Shown here piece after piece: positions 15,080 to 46,142 of a DNA stretch of 48,127 nucleotides. The translations under genes were made by a program, and so were the position numbers. Source of the DNA: Phycisphaeraceae bacterium (GTDB taxonomy: Bacteria > Planctomycetota > Phycisphaerae > Phycisphaerales > UBA1924); assembly GCA_021604785.1 (NCBI GenBank), contig BQJQ01000001.1:1-48127 (forward strand), written 5' to 3'. Below the pieces are notes generated by a model, which worked only from the letters and a program-made list of their open reading frames with translations, was not told where the DNA came from and searched no databases. How positions within the stretch are numbered: the stretch's first letter is position 1; each line of letters starts with the position of its first letter.

Positions 15080-15505
15080 TCACCGGGCCGGGCGGATCTC
15101 CAGCCGCCAGTACCGAACCGCGTCCGACCCGGAGTTCGCACGGAACCGCTGTTCAAACTGTGGCTCCAGAAAGACCCGCTGCCATTCGCTCGCGCCGATC
15201 TGCATCTCGTCGGCGTCGAACCAGAGCGCCCGATGCTGAATCCATACAGGGTTCTGCGCGATGCTCCGCACGGGAACCTCGAGCGACGCGACCTGGCCGG
15301 GCGACCCGGGTGTCCATCCGATGCGCGCAAAGTCGCTCACGATCGCCCCGGCCAGAGCTGGGTGCACCGCGATGCTCGGGTACTGCTCGACGGGCAAGGG
15401 ATCCTGCAGCGCCGAGTTCGGTGCGATCTTGGTCGGCTGACACCCTGCTACGCCCATCGCCGCTCCCGCGACCGAGCACGCCGCCAACATCTTGATCATC
15501 CTCAT
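15080..15505 (-). CDS. YcfL-like (DUF1425) lipoprotein
   Basis: A 141-residue predicted lipoprotein with a signal ending G-V-A-G-C, Cys at residue 22. The mature part has the pattern N-P-V-W-I-Q-H-R-A-L-W-F-D-A-D-E-M, close to the 'vqYrf.WyDa.G' centre of the YcfL/DUF1425 family, and then R-V-F-L-E-P. YcfL is of unknown function but in enterobacteria is encoded beside lpoB, a penicillin-binding-protein activator. Here it is the last gene of a four-lipoprotein operon that also has LpoB-like proteins, so the context repeats. Family call moderate. Confidence 0.72.
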   Translation of the reverse strand: MRMIKMLAACSVAGAAMGVAGCQPTKIAPNSALQDPLPVEQYPSIAVHPALAGAIVSDFARIGWTPGSPGQVASLEVPVRSIAQNPVWIQHRALWFDADEMQIGASEWQRVFLEPQFEQRFRANSGSDAVRYWRLEIRPAR

Positions 15506-15536
15506 CGCAAACTCCTTCCCGCGCCAAATCGCGCGC

Positions 15537-17105
15537 TCAACGCATGTCATTCTGGATCCGAATCGCCATCTCGCCCCGCGCCACATACACCGGGTGTTCG
15601 CCACAGAACAGCCGCACGAACCCCACGCTCCCGGGCACGGGCGCGTACATCGCGTCGCCGCCCTCAAGCACGTGCACCCCGTTGGGCACACCCGCCGACC
15701 ACCCCGAGATCGCGACGCCTTCCTCCTCGTACATGATCCGCAAGTCCCCCACCGTCACCCACTCGGGCAGCCCCGCGGCCCGGTACTCACGCAAGAGATC
15801 CTGCGAGGGCGAACGGACACACCGCCCGCCGAGCACCCAGGGCAACTCGGGCCGATCGAGCGCCCCCGTGGCGTCGTTCGCGTAGAGCACCCGCCCGCCC
15901 GCGCCCCACGCCTGGCCGCGCACGGGGAGCCGTACGTAGAAGACTCGAAACCCCCCGTCGATCTCGATCGCCGGCAGCTCAACCCGAGCCCCCGGGCGCC
16001 CTTCGATCCCGATCGACACCAGCGACACGCCCTGGGGCAGCGTTGCGAGTGCCAGGTATGTCCGCTGCGGCACGCCCACGCACTGGCGTGTGTCTGCACG
16101 CGATGTTGCTTTGAGCGCCAGCCCCGCCAGCGCGGCGCCCAGGCCCGCGAGCTGTGCCCCGCTGTCGTCCGAAAGTGCGGCGACCCCGATCCCGCCGTAC
16201 ACGAGCCCTGTTCCGATCGCGCTCTTGGCGCGGCGCTGTTCTTCGAGGCTCGTCCACTTCAGATCGCTCGCCAACCGGTTGTAATCTGTGAGCACCGGGA
16301 ATGCTCCGCCCGTGCGCCCGTTCACCGATACGACGACGCCCGCGGAATCGCTGGGCGTCCGCGGCTCGAACGCGGCGACCGACCCGTCCTCGCCCGCCGC
16401 CACTTTCTCCGGCCCGAGCCCGTAGTCGATGATGAACGCCGCGTTGTCCGAGCCGGTGCGGATCCGGGCCGCGAGCCCACCCAGTCCCGGACTGATCGCG
16501 ACCAACGCGCGCAACGACTCCTCCATCTCCGCTCGAAGGCCGAGTCTTCGCTCACCCAAAGCCGCGAGCGCGTGCCCCGGCTCGAAGTCCGACGCGATGA
16601 ACTCGACCTCGTTCTCGGCTGTGCCCTCGACTTCGGCCAGCTCGCGCAGCTGGAACGTCGCCCCGAGCGCCGAGGCCCGCATGTTGCCCCAGTCGCCGTT
16701 CACGCCGTCCACCGTTGCAACCGCCGCAAACGCCGCCGCCTGCTCGAACGGCTCGCCCTTCCACACACGCACGGCCTGATCGCCCAAGAAAAACCGTCCG
16801 AAGTCCGTGCCCGCGTTCACGCCCTGCACGCGCAGCTGGTCATAGGTGTAGTCCGCGGCGCCGTTCGCGGCGGGCATATCCCCCTCGGCGAGCGCCGTCC
16901 AGAGCACCAGCTGGCGATCGAGGAGGTACCGCTTGTCGCTGATTTTTCGGGTCTTCTCCCGCATGGCGATCGAGCGGGCCACGCCGTAGTCACCGTTGTG
17001 CATCGCGCGCAGGATGGCGTCGTCGCTCGGGCGCACACCGCCGGCGCACCCGACGCCCAGCGCCGCGGCACCAACCAGCACCAGCATGACCACCCATCGG
17101 CGCAC
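15537..17105 (-). CDS. Large lipoprotein resembling the COG3014 family
   Basis: A 522-residue predicted lipoprotein with lipobox L-G-V-G-C, Cys20. The N-terminal part is helical and repeat-like (D-Y-G-V-A-R-S-I-A, K-R-Y-L-L-D-R-Q-L, followed by Ala-rich helices). The middle has a hydrophobic Gly/Ala stretch (about 300-345) and the C-terminal part is beta-rich. It resembles the uncharacterised COG3014 lipoproteins often found with LpoB and YcfL. The start is GTG at 17105, with GGAGG five bases ahead, better than any other start. It lies between the second LpoB-like gene and the YcfL-like gene. Confidence 0.72.
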   Translation of the reverse strand: MRRWVVMLVLVGAAALGVGCAGGVRPSDDAILRAMHNGDYGVARSIAMREKTRKISDKRYLLDRQLVLWTALAEGDMPAANGAADYTYDQLRVQGVNAGTDFGRFFLGDQAVRVWKGEPFEQAAAFAAVATVDGVNGDWGNMRASALGATFQLRELAEVEGTAENEVEFIASDFEPGHALAALGERRLGLRAEMEESLRALVAISPGLGGLAARIRTGSDNAAFIIDYGLGPEKVAAGEDGSVAAFEPRTPSDSAGVVVSVNGRTGGAFPVLTDYNRLASDLKWTSLEEQRRAKSAIGTGLVYGGIGVAALSDDSGAQLAGLGAALAGLALKATSRADTRQCVGVPQRTYLALATLPQGVSLVSIGIEGRPGARVELPAIEIDGGFRVFYVRLPVRGQAWGAGGRVLYANDATGALDRPELPWVLGGRCVRSPSQDLLREYRAAGLPEWVTVGDLRIMYEEEGVAISGWSAGVPNGVHVLEGGDAMYAPVPGSVGFVRLFCGEHPVYVARGEMAIRIQNDMR

Positions 17106-17116
17106 AATAACCTCCG

Positions 17117-17722
17117 TCAGTCCAGCAGCAGCCCGCGCGCCTGGCGCGCGAAGCTCGTCTCGCCCGACCAGACCACCCGCCCGGTGGCGAGGTCCGTAAT
17201 CTGTGCGTCCACCACGAACACATCCTTGCGCGCATCGGCCACGCCACCGGCGACCGCTGCAGCCCGCTGGATCGACCGGAACGCGACGTTGAACAGGTGC
17301 GTGTCCGCGGGAAGGTCGTACGGGTCCGCACTCGATCCAGGGAGCACGTACCTCCGGAACAGCATGCGTTTCTCGGGCGTCAGGTGCACAAAGACGTTCG
17401 TCGCCTCGAACGCCGCCCGCACCTCGGGGTCGTACAGGATCATGCTCACGACACCCCACCGGTCTGCCTCGGGCAGACGCTCGCTGGAGAGGTTCACGGC
17501 GTCGCCCGCCATGATCACGAACGGCTGAGAGTCCCGCGACCGCCCGGCGAGCAGCTCGGCCGCCAGAAGCTCGCGGCGCAGCTCGCCCGCGCTGAACTCG
17601 ACATCCGAGACCGTGAACCGCGTGGACCCGGTCCGCTGCTTCGTCGCGCACCCGCCCGCGAGCGCACCCGCCAGCACGCACACGGCGCCCACCCGCAGGA
17701 TGTCCCGAGCCCGTGCGCGCAT
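17117..17722 (-). CDS. LpoB-like lipoprotein (copy 2)
   Basis: A 201-residue predicted lipoprotein with lipobox L-A-G-G-C, Cys25. The C-terminal strand pattern V-F-V-V-D-A-Q-I-T-D-L-A-T-G-R-V-V-W-S-G-E-T matches the LpoB end ('..L.D..tG.ivWsde'). LpoB proteins sit in the outer membrane and reach through the wall to activate a class A penicillin-binding protein. It starts 14 bases after the first LpoB-like gene stops. Its divergence from copy 1 suggests a distinct role rather than a recent duplicate. Confidence 0.75.
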   Translation of the reverse strand: MRARARDILRVGAVCVLAGALAGGCATKQRTGSTRFTVSDVEFSAGELRRELLAAELLAGRSRDSQPFVIMAGDAVNLSSERLPEADRWGVVSMILYDPEVRAAFEATNVFVHLTPEKRMLFRRYVLPGSSADPYDLPADTHLFNVAFRSIQRAAAVAGGVADARKDVFVVDAQITDLATGRVVWSGETSFARQARGLLLD

Positions 17723-17736
17723 CGCCGCCCTTTCGG

Positions 17737-18366
17737 TTACCGCGCTTCCTTGGACCTGATCTGATCCGAATAGATCACCCGCCCGTCGGTCGCCCGCACG
17801 AGGGTGATGTCGAAGACGTAGAGGCTGACCTCGCCGCGCCCGCGGGAGATCTCGCCCATCTCTCCGTTGAGCAGGAAGACGTCGCTCGCCGGGAAGATCC
17901 CCTCGGGCGTGTTCATGGACGCGCCGGACCAACCGGGCCCGTCGGACGTGAACCGGTCCTGCCAGTCACGCACGCGCGCCGGGTCGTTGTAGACCACCGC
18001 GTGCCGGCGCATCACCGGCGAGTTCGTGATGTCGTGCGAGATCATTTGCTGCACCGTGCGGAAGTCGCTCGAGGGCGTCTTCGTCCGGTTCTCGATCTCG
18101 CCCAGATACATCACCGCCTCGCGGTCGCGGTTCGCGATCTCCGGGATCGACGTGATCCGCGCGGGCAGCGACTGGGCGACCTGGTCGGCGAACTCGACGA
18201 GCGTCACCGAGCTGACCTCGCGGCCGTACCGGTCCGCGGCGGTCGATTCGCTGGTGCCAATCCGTCCGCCGGAGTCCCCGTACACCGTCTTGGGGTTCGA
18301 CGAGCACCCCGCCAAGAGGAGCGCCCCTGACAGCCCGGCCAAGACCCTCAATCCTCGCGTCTTCAT
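17737..18366 (-). CDS. LpoB-like lipoprotein (copy 1)
   Basis: A 209-residue predicted lipoprotein with lipobox L-L-A-G-C, Cys21. It has the LpoB-type core: V-M-Y-L-G-E-I-E-N-R-T, a conserved D-I-T-N-S-P, and the end Y-V-F-D-I-T-L-V-R-A-T-D-G-R-V-I-Y-S-D-Q. It heads the four-lipoprotein operon and has GGAGGG upstream of ATG 18366. No penicillin-binding protein is in the window, so its partner is elsewhere. LpoB homology is by pattern and moderately sure. Confidence 0.82.
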   Translation of the reverse strand: MKTRGLRVLAGLSGALLLAGCSSNPKTVYGDSGGRIGTSESTAADRYGREVSSVTLVEFADQVAQSLPARITSIPEIANRDREAVMYLGEIENRTKTPSSDFRTVQQMISHDITNSPVMRRHAVVYNDPARVRDWQDRFTSDGPGWSGASMNTPEGIFPASDVFLLNGEMGEISRGRGEVSLYVFDITLVRATDGRVIYSDQIRSKEAR

Positions 18367-18521
18367 GGTGGATCCCTCCTCAAGAGCGTGCCCTCGCGGG
18401 CGATGAGTTCCAGAACGCCGCCGGAGCGGCGGCACAGCACGATATGCCCGGTTAGGGCTCACCATACATACGAGACCGGCCCCCGCGCGTCGCGTCCTGA
18501 CAGAAAAATCCTCACCGGCCC

Positions 18522-19499
18522 TCAGTCGCCGGCCGGATCGACCAGCCGGACCCCGCCCAGGCGTCCTCCCGCCCGTGATGCGGCTTCGTTCCCCCGCAGG
18601 CGGGCGATCGTTGCGACCGCGTCGGCGATCCACCCTTCGGGCGCAATAACGGCGACCGCCCCCCCGCTTGGCGCGGGGATCGCCGTCGCCGGCTCGATGA
18701 CGTGAGACGCGGGGACGCCGTCGATCTCGACGTACCGGTACGCATCCCCGCTCGTCGCGACCGCTTCGTTCGCAAGCACGAGCGTTGCCCCGGGCGCCAC
18801 CCCGTTCGAGACGCGGACCGACCATCCATGGGCGCCCGGCGGCGGGCTCCCCACGACCAGATCGCCGCCGATCTCGACCAGCGCGGTCTCGAACCCCGCG
18901 TGCCACAGCTCGGCGAGTGCGAGATCCGCCGCGAGCCCCTTCCCGATGCCGCCGAAGTCCAGGCGCATGCCTTCGCGGGCCAAACGCACCCGGCCAGCGT
19001 CGGCATCGACTTGCAGCAGGCTCATCCCGACACGCTGTTGCGCCGTAGCGAGTTGCTCGCGTGTCGGGGCAACACCTGTCTCTTTCGATCGGCGCCACAG
19101 CACCGTCACGGCGCCGATCGTGATATCGAACGCGCCGTCGGACGCCTCCCACGCGTCGCGCGACCGCAGCACCGCTTCGATCAGCAGGGGGCTCGCCTCG
19201 TGCCAGACCCCCGGCGGGCGACCTGCGAGCACCATGCTCTCGCTGTTCGGGTCGTAGTCGCTCATCGCCCGATCGCACCGGTCGATCACCTCGAACGCAC
19301 GCCGCACCGCGTCGATCGGCTCCTCGGGTGCATAGACAACAATCCGCGCCCGGCTGCCCATCACGACCCTTGCGTATTCAAAGCGTTCGCCGGTACGCTC
19401 CACCCGCGAGCTATTCGGGTGTGTTCCGACGCACCCGCCCGCCGAGAGGAGAGCGAAGACTGTGATCACCACGGCAGCGAGATGGGTCGTGGTCCTCAT
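18522..19499 (-). CDS. ApbE-like FAD:protein FMN transferase, lipoprotein
   Basis: A 325-residue lipoprotein (lipobox S-A-G-G-C, Cys23) of the ApbE family. These enzymes attach FMN through a phosphoester to Thr or Ser of exported proteins such as NqrB/C and RnfG, using FAD. The signatures M-S-D-Y-D-P-N-S-E, D-F-G-G-I-G-K-G-L-A-A-D and G-G-D-L are present. The usual C-terminal T-H-(I/V)-I-D-P appears as S-H-V-I-E-P, a mild variant. The start at 19499 (or the ATG at 19505) overlaps the first 38-44 bases of the divergent FGE-like gene. No flavin-bearing target protein is nearby. Confidence 0.88.
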   Translation of the reverse strand: MRTTTHLAAVVITVFALLSAGGCVGTHPNSSRVERTGERFEYARVVMGSRARIVVYAPEEPIDAVRRAFEVIDRCDRAMSDYDPNSESMVLAGRPPGVWHEASPLLIEAVLRSRDAWEASDGAFDITIGAVTVLWRRSKETGVAPTREQLATAQQRVGMSLLQVDADAGRVRLAREGMRLDFGGIGKGLAADLALAELWHAGFETALVEIGGDLVVGSPPPGAHGWSVRVSNGVAPGATLVLANEAVATSGDAYRYVEIDGVPASHVIEPATAIPAPSGGAVAVIAPEGWIADAVATIARLRGNEAASRAGGRLGGVRLVDPAGD

Positions 19500-20277
19500 G
19501 CTCATCGCCGTCACCATAGCCCACGGCGAGGAGCCGCCCGCCGAGCAGGACGCGGTCGACTCCGGCCCGGAATCCGCCACGGTCGCGGTGCGCACCGTTC
19601 GTATACCGGGAACGGTCGAGGAATTTGAGCTGGTGGAAATTCCCTCCGACTCGGACGGCGACCTCTGGGTCGCCCGCACCGAGGTGGCGTGGGAGCTCTA
19701 TGACATCTATCTCTATGCGCTCGATGTGCCCGAAGGCGAGGCGGACGCGGACGCCGTCTCGCGACCGAGCAAGCCGTACGTCCCGCCGGACCGGGGGATG
19801 GGGCACGCCGGGTACCCGGCGATCGGGATGACACGCCAGGCGGCGCAATCTTTTTGCGACTGGCTTGAGGTCCGCACGGGGCTCGCGGCACGCTTGCCCA
19901 CGCCCGCGGAGTTCACGCGGTTTGCTGCGGTCGACGTAACTACTTCTCTTGAGGATCTTGCCTGGACCAACGCGACGAGCGAACGCACAACGCACCCCAC
20001 GGGAAGGCTCGCCCCGAATGCGCTCGGGCTGTATGACACGATCGGCAACGTCGCCGAGTGGGTGATGACCGAGGGCAAGCCCGTGGCGATGGGCGGCAGT
20101 TACCTGGACGATCCCGAGTCATGCACACCCCAGGCCGCGCAACGCCAGCTCCGAGCCTGGAATCAGTCCGACCCGCAGATCCCCAAGAGCCGCTGGTGGC
20201 TCGCCGACTGCTCGTGGGTTGGATTCCGGTTCGTGGTCGAAGAAGCCGCCGACACCGAGGAGCACGCAGATGAATGA
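19462..20277 (+). CDS. FGE/SUMF1-family exported protein
   Basis: A 271-residue secreted protein with a signal peptide (about 1-22) followed by a formylglycine-generating-enzyme-type domain: R-T-E-V-A-W-E-L-Y, the A-R-L-P-T-P-A-E-F segment, N-A-L-G-L-Y-D-T-I-G-N-V-A-E-W, then G-G-S-Y and the terminal W-V-G-F-R-F. True FGE converts a sulfatase Cys to formylglycine; many relatives lack that activity. The Cys after G-G-S-Y-L-D-D is kept, but no sulfatase is adjacent, so the reaction is uncertain. GTG 19462 has AGGAGAG upstream. Its stop overlaps the next gene by eight bases. Confidence 0.8.
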   Translation: MITTAARWVVVLMLIAVTIAHGEEPPAEQDAVDSGPESATVAVRTVRIPGTVEEFELVEIPSDSDGDLWVARTEVAWELYDIYLYALDVPEGEADADAVSRPSKPYVPPDRGMGHAGYPAIGMTRQAAQSFCDWLEVRTGLAARLPTPAEFTRFAAVDVTTSLEDLAWTNATSERTTHPTGRLAPNALGLYDTIGNVAEWVMTEGKPVAMGGSYLDDPESCTPQAAQRQLRAWNQSDPQIPKSRWWLADCSWVGFRFVVEEAADTEEHADE

Positions 20278-34706: not shown

Positions 34707-37430
34707 TCACTGGCAATCGGCGAGGAACGCGTTGACAAAGACGTCAATGTCATCGACATTGAGAACAGTGTCGGCGTTCAGGTCCGCCGCGAGGTCGCCG
34801 CTGAGGAATGCGGCCACGAACACGTCGATGTCGTCCACGTTGAGCGTGCCATTGCCATCGAGGTCGGCCGGGCAGCCACCCGAGCCTGAAAGCGTAACGG
34901 CATCAACGAACGGGAACTTCACGTACTCAATCAGCGCGTCGCGCTCGGCGGCGTCCATCGCGAGCACGGCGTCGCGTGCCGCGGTGCCCTCGCCGCCGTG
35001 CCAGAGGATGGCTTCCAGAAGCGACCGCGCCCGCCCGTCGTGCAGGTAGTTCGGGTCGGCGGGGTTGCCGTTGGGGTCGAACGGGTCGGTCGGCGTGCCG
35101 AGCACGTGCCCGACGTAGCCAACACCCCACAGCGGGGGCGTGCGCCACTCGTTCCCGCTCGCAGCGAACTCGGGGCGCCCGTCCGCGAGGTCGTCGCCCA
35201 TGTCGTGGAGCAGCATGTCCGTGAATGGCTGGATGACCTGGTCGCGGTACGGCGCGAACGCCGCGTTGGCCGCGGTGCGCATCACCGGGCGGTGGCATGA
35301 GACGCATCCGGCGGCCTCGAAGAGCATCTTGCCCTGCTGCGCCACGGGATCGAGGTGGTTCTCACGCGGGGGGACGGCGAGCCCGCGCAAATAGGCGACC
35401 ATGGCATCGAGTGACATGACGTCGACCTCGACCGGGCCGTCCCCGACCAAGTCTGACGGCATTCCCATGTCGTGCGCGAACGCCGACGCGGCCTGCTGGC
35501 GCAGGTTCGGCTCGGCAGCCTTCCATCCGAACCTGCCCAGCGCGCTGCCCCCGGTGGCGCGGTCCGTGACGATGTTCGCCCGCCCGGAGATGCCGTCGCC
35601 GTCGGTGTCGTGCTCGTCGGCCCAGGCCAGAACTTCGGACTCGTCGATCGCCTCAAGCAGCCCGAGACCGACGAGCATCGGGGCGACGCGTACGGACACC
35701 TCGGCCTCGCCGTCGTAGGGCCCGCCGGCGGTGGTTGCCGCGGGGTCGCCCGGGATGTTGGTCCCGATCTCGCCGTAGAGCAAGTCCGTGAACTCGACGC
35801 GCGGACGCCGGAGCTCATACGGCGTGCCGTCGTCGAAGAAGTCGCTGATGTACTCCCACACGATCGCGGCCGAGCCCTCGGGCGTCGCGCCCGGGGCGGC
35901 CTTCGTGTCCAGCTGCACGCCGTACAGCGGGTGGGGCTGCGGCGCCGCGCCGGGCGAACCTGGCACGCTCAGGCGCACGACATAGTCGTCGAGCGGGTCG
36001 GCGCTCGAGCCGGGTGCCTGGCCGCGGCCGTCGAGCATGTGGCACTCGATGCACGAGTTGTTGGTGTAGAGCGGGCCGAGCAGCCCGGGATCGAAGACCG
36101 GGCTGGGGCCCATGTCGAACCCGACCGGCCCGCCGTTGCAGTCGAACGCGGTGGGCGGGTTGAAGAGCAGCCCGTCGTCCCACCTCGTCTCGAACTGGAC
36201 CTTGCCCTCCATGAACTCACCGAGCTCGGTCGGGGGCAGGTTCAGCGCGTGCTGGTTGAACGCGAACTGCTTGACGGTGACCACCGGGATCGACGCGTCG
36301 CCCGCGGCGTACGCAAGCGGGTGCTGCGATTCGCGCTGCAGGCGTCCGTCGCCGACGTAGTAGTAGATGAACTCGCTGTAATACGTCTGCCCGGCCAGGA
36401 GCGTGAACTCGACATCGACCCGCTGCCCGTGCACCAGGTCATCGATCGTCGACGTGAACAGGCCCCCACCGCCGTCCATCCGCTTGCTGATGGCGGAGAT
36501 GTTCCGGTCGCAGAAGCCGACCTCGCCCGACTGGTTGTACCACTTGATGTCGACGGCATTCACAGGCACCTCGGGCGCCGTGGTCAGCTCGAAATCGAGC
36601 CGGTCGCCGCGGTCGGTGATCTTCAGGTCGAAGGTCCGGCCGATGTCGTACCCGGCGGGGTAGTGATCGAACCGCCACTCGTTCTCATGCCGGTCACGGA
36701 AGCGGATCCCCGCGACGGTCTCGATCGGCTCGTCCGAGATCGGGGGCGCGGCCTCTCCCAGCGTCCGCTCGAACCAGGCCGTATCGACCGGCTCGATCCC
36801 GACGGTCTTGACAAACGAGTATGAGACTTCGTCACCCGCGGCCACACCGGGCAGCTCATAGCCCCAAACGAAGCCGCCCTGATTCGACATCGGCGCGGTC
36901 TGCATGGGGCCACCGTTGAGCCGGTAGCGCAGGTCCACGCCCACCACCCCGGGGAGCGGCGACGCCGGCGCGCCGGTCTCGATCTCGACCGACCACGCGC
37001 CCCCGCTGTCGACGACATCGTGGCTGAACGAGCGCGAGTGCGCCAACCCGCCCGGCCCGGGGTCGGTGTCGTCATCATCGTCCGAGGTGAACGACGTGCA
37101 GCCCTGCTCAAGCGTGAGCGTGTGCGCTGGGAACTGGTGCTGCGACGGAACCTGCACCACCAGGTGGAAGTTGAACTGGGTCCCGGAGGAAAGCCCCGAG
37201 AACGTGGCGGCGAAGTTGCCCGAGCCGTCGTCGCTCATGAAGTACCCGCCCCCCGGGGGGTTGGGGTAGATCAGAACAGCCGTCGCGGTTGGCGTCGCCG
37301 CGACCGTAACTGTTACATCTGAACCGTCCAGGCAGACCGTGCCCGTATAGGTCGGGGCCGCAGGCTGTGCCGATGCTCCAGCGGAAGCCGAGGCTGCTGT
37401 CAGAACTGCGACCAAGGCTCTGAAACCCAT
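34707..37430 (-). CDS. Di-haem oxidoreductase-family protein with C-terminal dockerin
   Basis: A 907-residue exported protein. A signal (about 1-22) precedes roughly 400 residues of beta-rich and partly FN3/CBM-like character with no clear family. The DHOR (di-haem oxidoreductase) part has two c-type haem sites, C-I-E-C-H at about 460-464 and C-V-S-C-H at about 709-713, with G-D-G-I-S-G-R-A-N and H-D-G-R-A-R nearby, as in the family. The last 55 residues form two dockerin repeats (A-D-L-D-G-N-G-T-L-N-V-D-D, A-D-L-N-A-D-T-V-L-N-V-D-D) ending D-C-Q, not the usual G-C. Start 37430 has GAGGGTC upstream. Confidence 0.85.
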   Translation of the reverse strand: MGFRALVAVLTAASASAGASAQPAAPTYTGTVCLDGSDVTVTVAATPTATAVLIYPNPPGGGYFMSDDGSGNFAATFSGLSSGTQFNFHLVVQVPSQHQFPAHTLTLEQGCTSFTSDDDDDTDPGPGGLAHSRSFSHDVVDSGGAWSVEIETGAPASPLPGVVGVDLRYRLNGGPMQTAPMSNQGGFVWGYELPGVAAGDEVSYSFVKTVGIEPVDTAWFERTLGEAAPPISDEPIETVAGIRFRDRHENEWRFDHYPAGYDIGRTFDLKITDRGDRLDFELTTAPEVPVNAVDIKWYNQSGEVGFCDRNISAISKRMDGGGGLFTSTIDDLVHGQRVDVEFTLLAGQTYYSEFIYYYVGDGRLQRESQHPLAYAAGDASIPVVTVKQFAFNQHALNLPPTELGEFMEGKVQFETRWDDGLLFNPPTAFDCNGGPVGFDMGPSPVFDPGLLGPLYTNNSCIECHMLDGRGQAPGSSADPLDDYVVRLSVPGSPGAAPQPHPLYGVQLDTKAAPGATPEGSAAIVWEYISDFFDDGTPYELRRPRVEFTDLLYGEIGTNIPGDPAATTAGGPYDGEAEVSVRVAPMLVGLGLLEAIDESEVLAWADEHDTDGDGISGRANIVTDRATGGSALGRFGWKAAEPNLRQQAASAFAHDMGMPSDLVGDGPVEVDVMSLDAMVAYLRGLAVPPRENHLDPVAQQGKMLFEAAGCVSCHRPVMRTAANAAFAPYRDQVIQPFTDMLLHDMGDDLADGRPEFAASGNEWRTPPLWGVGYVGHVLGTPTDPFDPNGNPADPNYLHDGRARSLLEAILWHGGEGTAARDAVLAMDAAERDALIEYVKFPFVDAVTLSGSGGCPADLDGNGTLNVDDIDVFVAAFLSGDLAADLNADTVLNVDDIDVFVNAFLADCQ

Positions 37431-37785
37431 TGTATTGACCCTCAGGCGGCATCGATCGCATGGCGACTCCACACGCATGCGACAGGATGTCCGTGTCACC
37501 ACATCAGTTCATGGCTTGCGAGGGTAATCTGGGGCCCGGCTACCCGCAACTGTTACAGAGCATTTCGTGCATGAGCTTCTCCAGAGGGAGGTCGACGCCC
37601 GAGTTGTAGTGACGCCCTGAGTTCCAGAATGAGCCCAGTTCGGTGCGTTGTGGTCGGACAGAGTTCGGGCAAGCGGACAAAATTCGAACATCGAGCTCCG
37701 GGCTCGCAGACCGGCGACCGCGATTCTGTTCAAACCGAGATGACTTCGCCTGCAACCGCTGAGGATCTCTCTCTGTCCGTTCACG
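37431..37785. other. Non-coding stretch between two leftward genes
   Basis: About 355 bases, less GC-rich than the surroundings. They hold the upstream region of the di-haem gene and the end of the phytase-like gene. Short reading frames on the minus strand (about 71-91 residues) lack start signals and family resemblance, so none is called. No clear hairpin terminator was identified. Confidence 0.5.
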
Positions 37786-38943
37786 TCAATCCAATCGGAG
37801 CCGCACGAACACAGTCGGCCCTTCGGCCCCGTGGTCGTTGTCCGAGCAAACGAGCAACGACCCGTCGGGCAGGATCGTCATGCCCTCGAAGTTCATCGGG
37901 CGCCCTCCGGGCAGCCGGCAGGCGACCGCGTCGAAATCAAAGAGCAGGCACTTCTGCATGGTTGTCGAATCTTGATCGGCGGGACGCCCCAGAGCGGCTC
38001 GTCGCTCGGTGACCCGGGGAAGCTTGGGCACCTCTACGAGGTAGAGCCGAACGTTGTACTGCGGCGCGCCTTCGCCGACCCGCTCGGCTCGTTCGAGCGC
38101 GAGCAGCCTGCCCTCCCCAACACTCACCAGTTCGGTCAGCCCGTTTTGTTCACCCGCCCAGGACCCGGGCACGGGTCCGAGCGGGTAGCGGAGCGTGCTC
38201 ACGCCGCCGACCAGAAGTTCGTCTGCCAGCGTTCCTGACATGGAGAGTTGGTACCGGATCACTCGACAGAACACAGCAGTGTCCGATTCGTCCTGAGCCA
38301 GCGGCTCTTCGACCCCTGCGTACAGCACGCAGGTGTGCGGGCTCGCATGCACTTCGAGCGCGAGCGCTTCAAAGCCCCGGTTGTTGCGCACGCCCTTTGC
38401 CTGCACAGTCGCGTCCTGGGCATCAGCAATGAACATCTCCGGAACGGGCAGGCGTACGGTCCGGCCGCCGGAATCCCGTGCAAAGACCGCGGGCGGTTCG
38501 CCCTCCTTGGTTCGCCCCTCGCTGGACCAGAACACCGACTCTTGTTCACGCCACGCCCGGACCCCCTCGGGATCGACGCGATTCAGCTTGAAGGCTTCGG
38601 CGTACTCGTCGGTGAGCGCCACCCACTCGACCGTGGCAGAATCCGAGGGAGTAGGGGTATCGATGCCGGGGATTACAAGATGGGCCATCCGTGCCGGGGC
38701 AAACTCTGCGCGATCATCGGAGACCGCGTACACCTCAACCGAACGCCCGGGTTCACTGAACGCATCGATCCCCGAGATCCCACCGAACGGCCACGAGCGC
38801 TCGCCGAGGGTGGGCGGCTGGTCGAGCGTGAACGCGCTGACAAGTTCTACGGAGCGTGGGCGTGCAGCTTCGCCGGCGCTGGGCCCTGCTCCAGCAACGA
38901 CTGCCACCGAGGCGGCAACTGCGTAGAAAAACATCACTGGCAT
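37786..38943 (-). CDS. Esterase-like activity of phytase-family exported protein
   Basis: A 385-residue secreted protein with a signal region at about 1-20. It has the layout of the 'esterase-like activity of phytase' beta-propeller family: F-G-G-I-S-G-I-D-A-F, Y-A-V-S-D-D-R near the start, and N-F-E-G-M-T-I-L-P-D-G-S-L-L-V-C-S-D-N-D at the end. The substrate is unknown. The start (ATG 38943) lacks a strong ribosome-binding site; an alternative ATG is at 38934. It lies downstream of, and is separated by a terminator from, the lamin-tail gene. Confidence 0.8.
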   Translation of the reverse strand: MPVMFFYAVAASVAVVAGAGPSAGEAARPRSVELVSAFTLDQPPTLGERSWPFGGISGIDAFSEPGRSVEVYAVSDDRAEFAPARMAHLVIPGIDTPTPSDSATVEWVALTDEYAEAFKLNRVDPEGVRAWREQESVFWSSEGRTKEGEPPAVFARDSGGRTVRLPVPEMFIADAQDATVQAKGVRNNRGFEALALEVHASPHTCVLYAGVEEPLAQDESDTAVFCRVIRYQLSMSGTLADELLVGGVSTLRYPLGPVPGSWAGEQNGLTELVSVGEGRLLALERAERVGEGAPQYNVRLYLVEVPKLPRVTERRAALGRPADQDSTTMQKCLLFDFDAVACRLPGGRPMNFEGMTILPDGSLLVCSDNDHGAEGPTVFVRLRLD

Positions 38944-38970
38944 GTCGTGCGTCTCGGCTTGGGTGAGATA

Positions 38971-39003
38971 AAAGAAAAGCCCGGGGCATGGCGGCCCGGG
39001 CTT
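38971..39003 (-). terminator. Intrinsic terminator
   Basis: AAGCCCGGG and CCCGGGCTT form perfect 9-bp arms around a 9-nt loop. On the minus strand it is followed by TTTTCTTTTAT. It ends the lamin-tail gene 22 bases after its stop and lies just before the start of the phytase-like gene. Confidence 0.88.
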
Positions 39004-39025
39004 GCGATCGTGCGGGGATGTGCGA

Positions 39026-39694
39026 TTAGCGTCGGCGGCGCATCGCGGCCAGGCCGCCGAGCCCGAGAACAGCCGCGGACATGGGCGCCGGGACGACCCC
39101 GGGCGAGCCAATGGCGAACGTGCCGTCGTCCGAAGCGGGCTGATCGGAGGTGTACGCGCCGTAGACGCCGCCCTGGGCGAGGTCGCCGAAGGAGATGGTG
39201 CCCGGGTTGTAGATGAAGCTGGCGGGCAAGGCGGGGCCGGCGTAGGACTGGGAGGCGAGGGTGGCCGCGGCGCTGGTGTTGCCGTCGAAGAAATAGGCGG
39301 CGTCGCCGCCGCCGCCGAGGCCCGAGCCGCCGTCCACGTACCCGATCTGTACGCCGGCGAGGTTGCCCGCGCCCCAGACCGCCGCAAACGCGTCGAGTGC
39401 ATCGGTGGCGCTCCCCCAGTTGTCTTCCCACGAGACGAGCACGATGACAGACTCGCCCGCGGCGATGCTGCCGATGCCGAAGACCTCGTCGTCCTTGGTC
39501 GCGTCGGCGGAGTCGTCGTCGTAGTAGACGCCAGAGAAGCTCACCGAGCTGTTGCCGAAGTTGGTGATCTCGACCCAGTCCGCGGTCTGCTCGGTGCCCG
39601 ACACGCCGCCGGCCCAGATCTCGGTGATGGTCAGGCTCGCCGAGGCCGCGCCCGCGGCCAGGGTCAGTGCGCACGCCGCCGTCATGGTCTTCAT
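39026..39694 (-). CDS. Lamin-tail-like exported protein with PEP-CTERM-like anchor
   Basis: A 222-residue secreted protein. The signal is about 1-19. The N-terminal region resembles the lamin-tail domain, with L-T-I-T-E-I-W-A-G-G-V-S-G, D-W-V-E-I-T-N-F-G-N-S-S-V and F-S-G-V-Y-Y. The C-terminus, V-P-A-P-M-S-A-A-V-L-G-L-G-G-L-A, followed by A-M-R-R-R-R, is a variant of the PEP-CTERM sorting signal: short motif, hydrophobic helix, Arg cluster. Such proteins are cleaved and exported by an exosortase; none is in the window. The start is ATG 39694 with GGAGAGGA upstream. Confidence 0.85.
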   Translation of the reverse strand: MKTMTAACALTLAAGAASASLTITEIWAGGVSGTEQTADWVEITNFGNSSVSFSGVYYDDDSADATKDDEVFGIGSIAAGESVIVLVSWEDNWGSATDALDAFAAVWGAGNLAGVQIGYVDGGSGLGGGGDAAYFFDGNTSAAATLASQSYAGPALPASFIYNPGTISFGDLAQGGVYGAYTSDQPASDDGTFAIGSPGVVPAPMSAAVLGLGGLAAMRRRR

Positions 39695-42830: not shown

Positions 42831-43286
42831 TCATGCCGTGGCGGGTGCCGGCTCATTCCAGACGGTCCAGTACATCTTCAGTTCCTGAACAAGCGCCTGA
42901 AAACTCTCGAAGTTCAGCGGCTTCACAAGGTAGCTGTTTGCGTGTGCCGAGTACGCGCGGGACCGGTCAGCATCGGCGTGCGACGTCGTCAGCACAACCA
43001 CGGGGATCGAGCAGAGATCCGGGTCAGACTTGATCGCGGCGAGCACCTCGTGCCCGTCCATGCGGGGCAGGTTCAGGTCGAGCAGGATGACGTCGGGTCG
43101 ATCAGCGTCCTCGTACGGCGAATGCCGATTCACGAATGCCATCGCCTGCTCGCCGTTGACGACGTGCGAGACCGTGTTCGCGACCCGGTTGTCACGCAGT
43201 GCCCGCGAAATGAGCCCCGCGTGGTCCTCGTCGTCCTCGACGAGCAAGAAATGTACCGGCCGGACTGATTTCGATGCGGGCATCAT
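42831..43286 (-). CDS. Single-domain response regulator (CheY/Rcp1-like)
   Basis: A 151-residue receiver with phospho-acceptor Asp70 in V-I-L-L-D-L-N-L-P-R-M-D-G, the acidic pair in L-V-E-D-D-E, and Lys in Y-L-V-K-P-L. It has no output domain, so it acts by protein contact, as in Rcp1 or bacteriophytochrome partners. It starts at ATG 43286, overlapping the kinase stop by four bases (ATGA), so it is translationally coupled to the CHASE kinase and is its likely partner. Confidence 0.95.
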   Translation of the reverse strand: MMPASKSVRPVHFLLVEDDEDHAGLISRALRDNRVANTVSHVVNGEQAMAFVNRHSPYEDADRPDVILLDLNLPRMDGHEVLAAIKSDPDLCSIPVVVLTTSHADADRSRAYSAHANSYLVKPLNFESFQALVQELKMYWTVWNEPAPATA

Positions 43287-45868
43287 GCGATCTCCTCGAT
43301 GTCAGCTTGCTCGCAAGCAGACGCGGTCTCTGGCTGTGTGCTCGTGTGGCCCAAGGACACCCAGAATGTGGCCCCCTGCCCTTCTTCGGATTCAACCCAC
43401 GCGCGCCCGCCGAGTGACTCGGCGACCTGACGCACAATGGCAAGACCGACCCCCGTGCCACCTTCTTCCGCGCTGAGCCGGTTGAAGAGCTCGAAGATGC
43501 GGTCGTGGTGCTTGGGCGCGATCCCGTCGCCGTTGTCGCGGACAAAGAGATGGACATACTCGCCCTCGAGCCGGGAACCGATCTCGATAACGGGCCCGGC
43601 AGCCGAGCACCCATAGCGGATCGCGTTCGCGACCAGGTTCTGCATGATCTGCCCGATCCGGACCCGGTCCGCGTACACCGAAGGGTGCTCGAGCGACCGC
43701 TCGATGCATACGTGCTTCTCGTTCAGACCCTGCTCAAGCGCCGCGATGATGTCATCGAGCAACCCGTCGAGCGCGATCTCCTCGGGCTCGTGATGCGCCC
43801 GCCCGAGCCGGCTCAACTCAAGCAGGTCGTCCACGGTCTCGTTGAGCTTGTTCCCGGCACGCGCGACACGCCTGAAATAGTCCCGCAGTTCGTCGGCTGC
43901 CACCTTCCCGGCATCGCCAACGCCCAGTTCGGCGTACCCGATGATCGTGAGCAACGGGGCTTTCAGGTCGTGCGACGCGGAGTACACGAACCGTTCGAGC
44001 TCGACGTTCTTCCGCGTCAACTCTTCGTGCGCCTCACGGAGCACCGAGATGTCAGTGATCGATCCCGACATCTGAACGCCTGTCCCGTCTTCACTCCGCA
44101 AAGCCTGCCCGCGAGCCCGGAACCAACGGTACTGCCCCGTGCGCATCCGCATGCGGAACTGATGGTCGTACGGCGCGTCGCTGCTCAGGTGCGCCTCGAT
44201 CGCCTGGAGATTCCCTTCCTTGTCCTCCGGGTGGAGCAGACTGAGCCATGACTCGAGCCGGTGTGCAAGGAGGCCGTACTCTTCGGGGGCATACCCGACG
44301 AGGTCCTTGAACCGGTCGGAGTACCAGACATCGCCGGTCGCGGGGTTGTAATCCCAGAGCCCGTCCGCCGAGCCCGTGACCGCCCGGTCGAACCGATCTT
44401 GTGCTTCGCGCAGTTCGGTGATGTCCGTCGCGATCGCTAGGATGCGGTCGTATGCGCCGTGCTCGTTTGCCAGCGGTATTTTGTCGGTTCTGATGATCCG
44501 GCGGTCTCCGTTCCCGCCTTCGTGAACCTCTTCAATCCCGAGTTCGGGCTCCCCGGACGCGAGCACGGCCCGGTCGGCCACGAGGAACTCCGCCGCGTTC
44601 TTGGCCGGGAAGAACTCCTCGGTCTTGTGCCCACGGACCGCCTCGATCGGCATGCCCATCGCATCCGCAGCGGTCTGGTTCATATCCAGGATCGTGTTGT
44701 TGCCATCCTTGTAGTAGATGTACGCGGGCATCGCGTCGAGCAGCGTCCGGATCTCACGCTCGTTCGATTCGGCACGGCTCGCCCCGGCCACCGCCTCGGC
44801 TTGCGTGCGCTTCAGGTCCGTGCTCACCAGATCGGCAAACGCGAGTGCGTGCCGGCTTGCGCGGGCGTGGAACAAGAACAGCCAAACGAGCAGCCCCTCG
44901 ATCATCAACCCGGCAACCAGAATGAAGAACGGCTGCGAATTCGCCGAGGCCGCGTCGAATGAAACACCGCTCGCGATCTCGAACGTCCATGTCCGCCCGT
45001 AAAACGAAACAGCCTCGGCCTTCGTGTACTGCGGCGACGGGTCGTAGTCTGACTCGGTCGCAACGAGCTCGTCGTAAATAATGCTGCTGCCGTCGGTGAG
45101 CCGGACCCCGACATGCCGGTTCTCCTTGTGGAGGACCCCCTGCATCAGTCGCTTCACGACGAACGGCGCGTACACAAGCCCGCGGATCGTCTCGACCCGA
45201 TCGACAGGCTCCGGGTGGGCCACGCCTTCGTAAAACGGCGCAAAGAACAAGAACCCGGGTGTCTGCTGCGCATCCTGCACCAGCACGATCGGCCCCGTGA
45301 TCTGGGCGGCGCCCGTGTCGCGCGCTTTCTTCGCCGCGTCGAAACGGTTCGCTTCGTGCGCCATGTCGAGCCCGACGGCTGCGCGGTTCGCTTCAACCGG
45401 CTCGATGTAGGTGATGGGCCAGAACTCATCTTCCCCGTGCGCGGGGTGAATCTCGAAGGCTGGGCGCCGCTCCCGCTGCTCAGCAAGAAATGCCTCAACT
45501 TCGTCGGGACCAATCGCGTTGATAACCCCGATGCCGTTGATGCCGGGATACCGCTCGTCGATCCGCACGCTCTCCGAGTAGGCGACCCATTCGTCGTAGT
45601 TCACGCCGCCTTGCTGGCTTGCGTGAAAGAGCGCAACACCACCCCACAGCGCATCCTCATATTTGTGCATCCGATCCTGCACAAGATCCAAGACCTGGCT
45701 CGCCTCGCGCTCAAACCGTTGCTCGGCCTTGTCACGCACCTGCATGCGCGAGAAATGCCAGGCCGACACGGTGAGCACAAGCGAGAGCGCGATGACGGCC
45801 CAGTGCACCCAGCTCAGGTGGGTCCCACGCTCCAGCCGTGCGCGTTGCGTGTCACTCAGAGAAGTCAT
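43283..45868 (-). CDS. CHASE-PAS-PAS sensor histidine kinase
   Basis: An 861-residue inner-membrane kinase. TM1 is about 21-40, a CHASE-type extracellular domain spans about 60-270, and TM2 is about 314-334. PAS1 (about 372-480, A-Y-I-Y-Y-K-D-G) and PAS2 (about 488-610, G-L-W-D-Y) follow. HisKA has His633 in S-A-S-H-D-L-K-A-P, and the HATPase has Q-N-L-V-A-N-A-I and G-T-G-V-G-L-A-I-V. CHASE domains bind small ligands such as cytokinin-like molecules. The start is uncertain: ATG 45868 or 45880. It is coupled to the receiver at 42831. Confidence 0.92.
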   Translation of the reverse strand: MTSLSDTQRARLERGTHLSWVHWAVIALSLVLTVSAWHFSRMQVRDKAEQRFEREASQVLDLVQDRMHKYEDALWGGVALFHASQQGGVNYDEWVAYSESVRIDERYPGINGIGVINAIGPDEVEAFLAEQRERRPAFEIHPAHGEDEFWPITYIEPVEANRAAVGLDMAHEANRFDAAKKARDTGAAQITGPIVLVQDAQQTPGFLFFAPFYEGVAHPEPVDRVETIRGLVYAPFVVKRLMQGVLHKENRHVGVRLTDGSSIIYDELVATESDYDPSPQYTKAEAVSFYGRTWTFEIASGVSFDAASANSQPFFILVAGLMIEGLLVWLFLFHARASRHALAFADLVSTDLKRTQAEAVAGASRAESNEREIRTLLDAMPAYIYYKDGNNTILDMNQTAADAMGMPIEAVRGHKTEEFFPAKNAAEFLVADRAVLASGEPELGIEEVHEGGNGDRRIIRTDKIPLANEHGAYDRILAIATDITELREAQDRFDRAVTGSADGLWDYNPATGDVWYSDRFKDLVGYAPEEYGLLAHRLESWLSLLHPEDKEGNLQAIEAHLSSDAPYDHQFRMRMRTGQYRWFRARGQALRSEDGTGVQMSGSITDISVLREAHEELTRKNVELERFVYSASHDLKAPLLTIIGYAELGVGDAGKVAADELRDYFRRVARAGNKLNETVDDLLELSRLGRAHHEPEEIALDGLLDDIIAALEQGLNEKHVCIERSLEHPSVYADRVRIGQIMQNLVANAIRYGCSAAGPVIEIGSRLEGEYVHLFVRDNGDGIAPKHHDRIFELFNRLSAEEGGTGVGLAIVRQVAESLGGRAWVESEEGQGATFWVSLGHTSTQPETASACEQADIEEIA

Positions 45869-46142
45869 GGAGTCAGGCATCCCGAGAGGTGCGGCGCATA
45901 GGCACGCCCCGCAACGGTTCGGTGCGCACCACCGAGTCGGTATCGGCACCCTCTCCCCCACGCTTGTGACAGACACCGTCCTTCGCCCGATTATCGGCTC
46001 CTTCCTCATGGCCGCGGCCTCTACCCGCCCCGGCAGCCGCACGACCGGAAAAGGCGATCCGAGCCCTGTCCCAGACTGTGTCGAACCTCAAACGTGGCGC
46101 AGCCAAGGTTCCGATACGACCTGCTCAACCGGAGCCACCCCC
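45869..46142. other. Divergent intergenic region between two signalling operons
   Basis: 274 bases separating the CHASE kinase from the receiver-kinase. It presumably holds promoters for both, but no sigma-70-type boxes could be picked out with confidence. Confidence 0.4.

Follow-up and report, generated by a model that had tools for sequence, protein, structure and literature searches.

The window analysed here is a 48,127-nucleotide stretch of DNA from a Phycisphaeraceae bacterium (contig BQJQ01000001.1, assembly GCA_021604785.1). At positions 15080-18366 its minus strand carries four open reading frames (ORFs) for putative lipoproteins, namely two LpoB-like proteins (LpoB-A and LpoB-B), a YcfL-like (DUF1425) protein and a 522-residue protein provisionally called COG3014-like. 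We read the operon as a variant of the widespread COG3014-YcfL-LpoB module that has two LpoB genes and a fused domain. LpoB is named after the activation of class A penicillin-binding proteins (PBPs), but class A PBPs were not found in this organism and were found in hardly any of its relatives; the family therefore probably has another function here. The explanation that is given somewhat better than an even chance is a conserved outer-membrane lipoprotein complex that has a scaffold function at the outer membrane and does not activate class A PBPs.

In transcription order, the four genes of this strand are separated by 14, 11 and 31 bp. The N-terminus of each protein, read by eye, features a signal-peptide-like stretch that leads to a lipobox, and the lipobox cysteine is followed by Ser in LpoB-A, by Ala in LpoB-B and the COG3014-like protein, and by Gln in the YcfL-like protein, so that all four carry a residue other than Asp at position +2. 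The +2 rule for the sorting of lipoproteins to the outer membrane is the E. coli rule. All four genes are under purifying selection, with ratios of nonsynonymous to synonymous substitution (dN/dS) relative to a genome of the same genus (G001) of 0.18 for LpoB-A, 0.25 for LpoB-B, 0.28 for the COG3014-like gene and 0.15 for the YcfL-like gene.

Taken alone, every protein of the window scores below all curated cut-offs, and the family assignments rest on relatives, in alignments from which rows without a clear lipobox were mostly excluded. LpoB-A by itself has no Pfam match at E ≤ 10, reaches 14.7 bits against TIGR02722 (cut-off 110.55) and gives only two chance-level matches in a phmmer search of PDB chains. 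Among its relatives 28 of 34 match PF13036 (LpoB) at E ≤ 0.1, the best at 9.5e-10, and the LpoB-A profile matches E. coli LpoB (94.7%, E 6.3e-8) and solved LpoB chains (E 0.0028-0.032). LpoB-B by itself matches PF13036 at E 0.21, under the cut-off; a match at E ≤ 0.1 is seen for 17 of its 27 relatives (best 3.1e-9). The profiles of the two families match each other at 99.8% (E 3.7e-28); the LpoB-B profile reaches only 23.6% with E. coli LpoB and has no match in the PDB at E ≤ 1. The family profiles thus support membership of LpoB-A in the LpoB family and, less firmly, that of LpoB-B. In a tree of 133 rows, drawn with a midpoint root for display only, the 38 LpoB-B rows form one clade with a support of 100/100, the A rows require two changes, and canonical LpoB falls on the A side. 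Because the LpoB-B rows form a single clade with this support, the pair is old, and LpoB-B is, by this tree, an old second paralogue.

The predicted structure of LpoB-A, with a mean confidence (pLDDT) of 80.6 and 112 residues at 90 or above, is closest to the C-terminal domain of LpoB (4q6z; Z 10.6, root-mean-square deviation 4.4, 123 residues aligned), and Foldseek finds 4q6l at E 4e-6. The model therefore points to an LpoB C-terminal fold in LpoB-A. The YcfL-like protein matches PF07233 (DUF1425) at E 4.6e-4 and 20.5 bits, under the cut-off of 28.3, and all 34 relatives match at E ≤ 0.1 (best 6.7e-16). Its profile matches E. coli YcfL (96.2%, E 2.2e-9) and the solved relatives 3o0l (E 3.4e-9) and 4gio (E 4.6e-9), which places the protein, by profile, in the DUF1425/YcfL family. 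An initial annotation of this DNA had described four lipoprotein genes in one direction with short gaps, two of them LpoB-like and one YcfL-like; the layout is as described, and the family names hold at the level of the relatives.

The 522-residue protein by itself has no Pfam match at E ≤ 10. Its family profile matches the canonical family that adjoins YcfL and LpoB elsewhere (97.9%, E 6.2e-13) and, weakly, the COG3014-like homolog of Azospirillum (71.9%, E 3.4e-5). Judged by these profiles, it is a distant relative of the gene found near ycfL and lpoB in Azospirillum, other Planctomycetota and Verrucomicrobiota. An AlphaFold2 model (pLDDT 87.5; predicted template modelling score, pTM, 0.88) features an N-terminal helical solenoid like that of tetratricopeptide repeat (TPR) proteins. 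The solenoid matches TPR proteins in structure at Z 10.7-12.6, where values under about 13 for helical repeats may reflect a mere common arrangement, and 10 of the 25 family members contain TPR_2 at E ≤ 1 (best 5.7e-6). The solenoid is followed by a glycine-rich helical hairpin, which has a glycine content of 11.5-22.9% across 25 rows, compared to 9.5% in the whole proteins, and a top 19-residue hydropathy per row of 0.93-1.85.

The C-terminal part of the 522-residue protein, from about residue 395, is encoded on its own elsewhere in the phylum. Six further loci of the phylum were fetched for partial matches, and in four of them (L137-L140) this part is a separate ORF with a lipobox-like N-terminus, as read by eye. 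The separate ORF adjoins LpoB in L137 and L138 and a COG3014-like gene in L139 and L140; in L139, LpoB and YcfL lie about 4 kb beyond these two genes. An alignment of eight rows has 11 columns that are invariant between the fused and the separate forms. Since the part is fused here and is a separate neighbouring gene elsewhere, an assembly of several lipoproteins is supported, and the gene fusion is the best evidence in the sequences that these products would work jointly. No separate C-terminal ORF was found at E ≤ 0.01 in the 20 and 38 canonical loci described below, some of which are the same place. No structural match was listed for the C-terminal part from the whole-protein model, which in itself does not point to a new fold.

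The operon is conserved among relatives. The 522-residue protein matches 43 of 101 genomes, including its own, at E ≤ 1e-3 (weakly in G093), and 41 loci were compared, the window plus 40 from 39 other genomes (of the 42, G027, G093 and G100 were left out). In 36 of the 41 loci the four genes share a strand; 29 of these have the order of the window, six have B-COG3014-YcfL-A and one has COG3014-YcfL-A-B. This is the conservation of order across Phycisphaerae that the initial annotation had proposed to check. The five exceptions are L036, which is located on a 3.5-kb contig, L053, near a contig end that could conceal the LpoB genes though not YcfL, L051 and L070, where YcfL was not detected, and L069, where one ORF is matched by both LpoB profiles. 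At E ≤ 1e-100 the full window-type profile matches 12 of 392 genomes of the phylum, all within its own order, and a broad COG3014-like profile matches 87 of the 101 genomes at E ≤ 1e-3 and 78 at the stricter E ≤ 1e-10.

Canonical LpoB (PF13036 at E ≤ 1e-15) is present in 33 of the 101 genomes. No genome has both canonical LpoB and the window-type protein, compared to 14 expected if phylogeny is ignored, as if one substitutes for the other. Twenty canonical loci were fetched from these 33 genomes, of which 16 have a COG3014-like match and six a credible YcfL; two further YcfL matches were dropped, one being the LpoB ORF itself and the other lying kilobases away. A wider scan gave 36 loci from Phycisphaerae, other Planctomycetota, Verrucomicrobiota and three records titled 'uncultured bacterium'. 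Together with Azospirillum and Aeromonas these make 38 loci outside the order, and COG3014-like, YcfL and LpoB are all present in 32. The incomplete ones are four Opitutae loci without YcfL, L109 without LpoB (the contig ends there) and L135 with the COG3014-like gene only. The canonical COG3014-like(-YcfL)-LpoB operon of other Phycisphaerae and of Verrucomicrobiota is the same module as that of the window, although it features a single LpoB in the loci seen and no fused C-terminal part was found in it. One genome, G010, has two COG3014-like genes of different type (contigs C55 and C41), each near an LpoB match, which are a canonical module and a second COG3014-like gene that is not of the window type. 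In another (G091:C1:68396-69940), the open frame that holds the COG3014-like match is unusually long, 1515 aa, and one TGA is reported inside the match.

The next structural matches of the LpoB-A model are lipoproteins of rings and pores, PelC (Z 7.0), GNA1162 (Z 6.5) and CsgG (Z 6.1), which have the same general fold as the LpoB-A core. The operon could thus encode an outer-membrane export ring like those of CsgG and PelC, in which the LpoB-fold proteins would be the subunits and the COG3014-like protein the TPR receptor. The TPR-like solenoid, the glycine-rich hairpin present in 25 rows and a fifth exported protein downstream in 8 of the 41 loci agree with such a ring. However, LpoB ranks first among the matches, and values of Z below 8 may reflect a mere common arrangement; additionally, an export operon context is not recognised, as no synthase or secreted substrate was found in the ten gene clusters common to at least four loci within 5 kb, most of which are unannotated. 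An export ring is therefore considered improbable. FlgT (Z 6.0) and the LPHT ring (Z 5.9) also appear among the matches and would be compatible with a flagellar outer-membrane ring akin to FlgO/FlgT, which is the least probable of the explanations considered. Of ten genomes without a strong FlgI match (best E > 1e-25), seven have a strong COG3014-like match, about the overall share of 78 of 101. The flagellar link was rejected, as the module is kept in most genomes without a strong FlgI match. A second FlgI-like domain (profile positions ~6-228) was noticed in Phycisphaerae relatives, for example at G037:C1:1778686-1779405; many relatives carry it within open frames of about 610-1110 aa, and some of these have no strong FlgI match.

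The initial annotation had also suggested that the lipoproteins form a larger outer-membrane assembly that reaches the wall-building enzymes, and had proposed a test of interaction with class A PBPs. The search for such a partner used the transglycosylase domain PF00912, shared by class A PBPs and monofunctional transglycosylases. The genome of the window, which is 87.8% complete, gave no PF00912 match, and the domain was found in 2 of the 101 genomes (G065 and G070), both among the 85 that reach at least 90% completeness with no more than 5% contamination; a control search was positive in 10 of 14 well-known genomes. In the wider scan, 26 genomes were searched for the 36 loci, their completeness not being given, and three of these module-bearing genomes have PF00912 (L108, L110 and L134, with the titles Puniceicoccales/Verrucomicrobia). 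The two samples overlap, as at least four loci (L102, L104, L120 and L121) are already among the 101. The Aeromonas record has PF00912, and the Azospirillum record is a plasmid and is uninformative. As far as was found in the genome sequence, the organism has no class A PBP with which the lipoproteins could interact, and because this partner is missing here and in nearly all relatives, the role of the LpoB family in these bacteria probably differs from class A PBP activation. The lack of class A PBPs in some bacteria of the Planctomycetes-Verrucomicrobia-Chlamydiae (PVC) group is already reported in PMC8406291.

A class A PBP could have been missed through genome incompleteness, in which case the LpoB-like proteins might be true activators of the PBP1b type. 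In addition to the incompleteness of the window genome, this explanation could draw on a match in that genome to UB2H, the docking domain. UB2H matches 61 of the 101 genomes at E ≤ 1e-3, 23 of them over the cut-off and the window genome among these. The match in the window genome scores 29.2 bits, and a scan of the whole protein lowers it to 25.6 bits, under the cut-off. However, it sits within an Mfd-like transcription-repair coupling factor (DEAD helicase, UvrB_inter, CarD and TRCF domains), where UvrB_inter matches more strongly; the open frames with the other matches span 385-1478 aa, many of them 1100-1260. The sole UB2H match in the window genome is thus in an Mfd-like protein, and PF00912 was not found in that genome, so that no UB2H domain on a class A PBP was found there. 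Given that PF00912 is confined to two genomes even among the 85 of high quality, a missed activator of this type is very improbable.

FtsW/RodA is present in all 101 genomes, a transpeptidase in 100 and MreB in all 101. Since FtsW/RodA is universal and class A PBPs are confined to two genomes, no glycan polymerase other than the SEDS proteins was found in 99 of the 101. An LpoB-like pair that has retained the LpoB fold, as the LpoB-A model suggests, could act on a machine of SEDS and class B PBP (RodA-PBP2 or FtsW-PBP3) in place of the class A activator role known from E. coli. The near-universal presence of FtsW/RodA, transpeptidase and MreB gives no contrast across the genomes, and because these are universal while the module is patchy (present in the 78 genomes matched by the broad profile at E ≤ 1e-10), the module is not tied to SEDS or MreB. 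Additionally, the tethers have about 30 and 12 residues, a short length for spanning the periplasm. Activation of a SEDS machine is accordingly regarded as unlikely.

In PMC4458516, residues 1-60 of E. coli LpoB are treated as disordered. The long disordered tether that is expected of a PBP-activating LpoB was found in neither LpoB-A nor LpoB-B. The tether before the first long helix has about 32 residues in LpoB-A of the window (family median 29.5, n = 34), compared to about 13 in LpoB-B (family median 12, n = 27) and 20 in canonical Phycisphaerae LpoB (n = 15), the latter two being measured to a motif chosen by the analyst and not to a modelled helix. As the tethers are short, action would be mostly at the outer membrane and would not reach an inner-membrane polymerase; LpoB-B in particular, with its very short tether, should sit at its own membrane.

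In the favoured reading, an outer-membrane scaffold complex, the COG3014-like TPR protein would serve as the scaffold, on which the two LpoB-fold paralogues may form a hetero-pair or a mixed ring, and YcfL would be a small partner. The complex would work mostly at the outer membrane, whether as scaffold, as gate or as a tether of the envelope, and class A PBPs would not be activated by it in these bacteria. The LpoB and DUF1425 family relations, the predicted LpoB-A fold, the conserved operon, the fusion, the near-absence of class A PBPs and the tether lengths are what the data show; the placement at the outer membrane, the assembly into a complex, its oligomeric state and any activity are inferred. 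Of the assembly suggested in the initial annotation, conserved linkage and gene fusion uphold the lipoprotein assembly, and the reach to class A PBPs is not borne out. Several points weigh against the outer-membrane scaffold, in addition to the way in which two of the tethers were measured. Conserved synteny indicates functional linkage and not a physical complex, and both genomes that have PF00912 (G065 and G070) carry the operon. Asp follows the lipobox cysteine in 2 of 34 LpoB-A rows and 6 of 35 YcfL rows, and the +2 rule is taken from E. coli. The geometry of the periplasm may also differ in these bacteria, so that a short tether might still reach across it.

The module can be compared to two known arrangements. 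In E. coli, hinT-ycfL-lpoB-thiK-nagZ has ycfL beside lpoB, the activator of PBP1b, and the two families are linked here too; this agrees with the enterobacterial neighbourhood named in the initial annotation. The LpoB C-terminal fold is common to E. coli LpoB and the LpoB-A model, as is the YcfL family to both loci, whereas the COG3014-like partner is absent from the 8-kb ycfL-lpoB stretch of E. coli, and the window differs in its two LpoB paralogues, its short tethers and the class A PBP that was not found. In Azospirillum sp. TSH100, plasmid p1 carries COG3014-like-YcfL-LpoB-DUF6844, with the same three families adjacent and an LpoB that scores 145 bits to TIGR02722. Unlike the window, it has one canonical LpoB and an extra DUF6844 gene, and no C-terminal fused part was found. 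The DUF6844 gene and a 402-aa gene stand directly after the three genes (L099:7421-10022), and the latter has an LpoB match below the cut-off (21.7 vs 22.3 bits) and a TolB_N match. The LpoB-YcfL-COG3014-like trio could be an ancient envelope complex whose origin and function are independent of class A PBPs. In Planctomycetota and Verrucomicrobiota it would have another job, at the outer membrane or with SEDS proteins, and the PBP1b-activating LpoB of E. coli would be a derived use of one subunit after loss of the scaffold. This scenario is put forward tentatively, at somewhat less than even odds.

According to PMC4458516, the UB2H domain and LpoB are restricted to enterobacteria and Vibrionaceae. 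Here, LpoB-family proteins are found in a conserved operon that is common in bacteria nearly all of which lack class A PBPs. In the open-access literature no report was found of LpoB-family operons that persist in PVC bacteria poor in class A PBPs, and nothing was found on COG3014, COG3417 or DUF6844. Two questions are thereby opened to testing: how LpoB acts where PBP1b is missing, and whether its role in E. coli is a derived one. Caution is also due with the automatic label 'penicillin-binding protein activator LpoB', which can be misleading.

Accessory genes occur at some of the loci. The fifth exported protein is an open frame of about 380-730 aa directly downstream of YcfL in L036, L042, L044, L046, L047, L049, L052 and L055. 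Its repeated stretches look TolB/FlgO-like, and of four members tested the one from L049 matches FlgO, weakly (E 1e-3). It was not found in the window genome, in a search with a single divergent query that makes this a weak negative. A conserved membrane protein lies directly upstream of LpoB-B in L059, L062, L063, L064, L066 and L067, and the one member tested, from L064, is an Rce1-like CAAX protease (PF02517, E 5e-20). The fifth protein, the CAAX protease and the DUF6844 and 402-aa genes of Azospirillum hint at a larger system.

The features of the region are listed in Table 1. The ApbE gene upstream of LpoB-A was rejected as a member of the operon, as it matches in only L050 among the 40 other loci and is separated from LpoB-A by 155 bp beyond its stop and by a terminator-like hairpin. 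This spacing and the hairpin are consistent with an operon start downstream of ApbE; the hairpin comes from a consensus scan of the region that saw five such sites compared to 1.5 expected. A scan of the region found no sigma-70-type promoter, which is a weak negative in this phylum.

Table 1. Features of the lipoprotein operon and its upstream flank, in positions of the window.
Feature	Position	Strand	Remarks
LpoB-like lipoprotein A	17737..18366	-	209 aa; lipobox LLAGC; first in transcription order
LpoB-like lipoprotein B	17117..17722	-	201 aa; lipobox LAGGC; second in transcription order
COG3014-like lipoprotein	15537..17105	-	522 aa; GTG start; lipobox LGVGC; third in transcription order
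Predicted TPR-like helical solenoid of the 522-aa protein	16443..17045	-	residues 21-221
Glycine-rich helical hairpin of the 522-aa protein	16104..16250	-	residues 286-334; two helices in the model
C-terminal part of the 522-aa protein	15540..15923	-	from ~residue 395; encoded separately elsewhere in the phylum
YcfL-like (DUF1425) lipoprotein	15080..15505	-	141 aa; lipobox GVAGC; last in transcription order
Terminator-like hairpin	18514..18533	-	end of the upstream ApbE gene; consensus scan only
ApbE family FAD:protein FMN transferase	18522-19643	-	apparent exported lipoprotein; PF02424 E 8e-54

Elsewhere in the window, the minus strand carries a di-haem oxidoreductase with a CBM56-type carbohydrate-binding match (34710-37502), after it a phytase-like esterase (37789-39402), and a sensor histidine kinase with CHASE and PAS domains (43286-46042).

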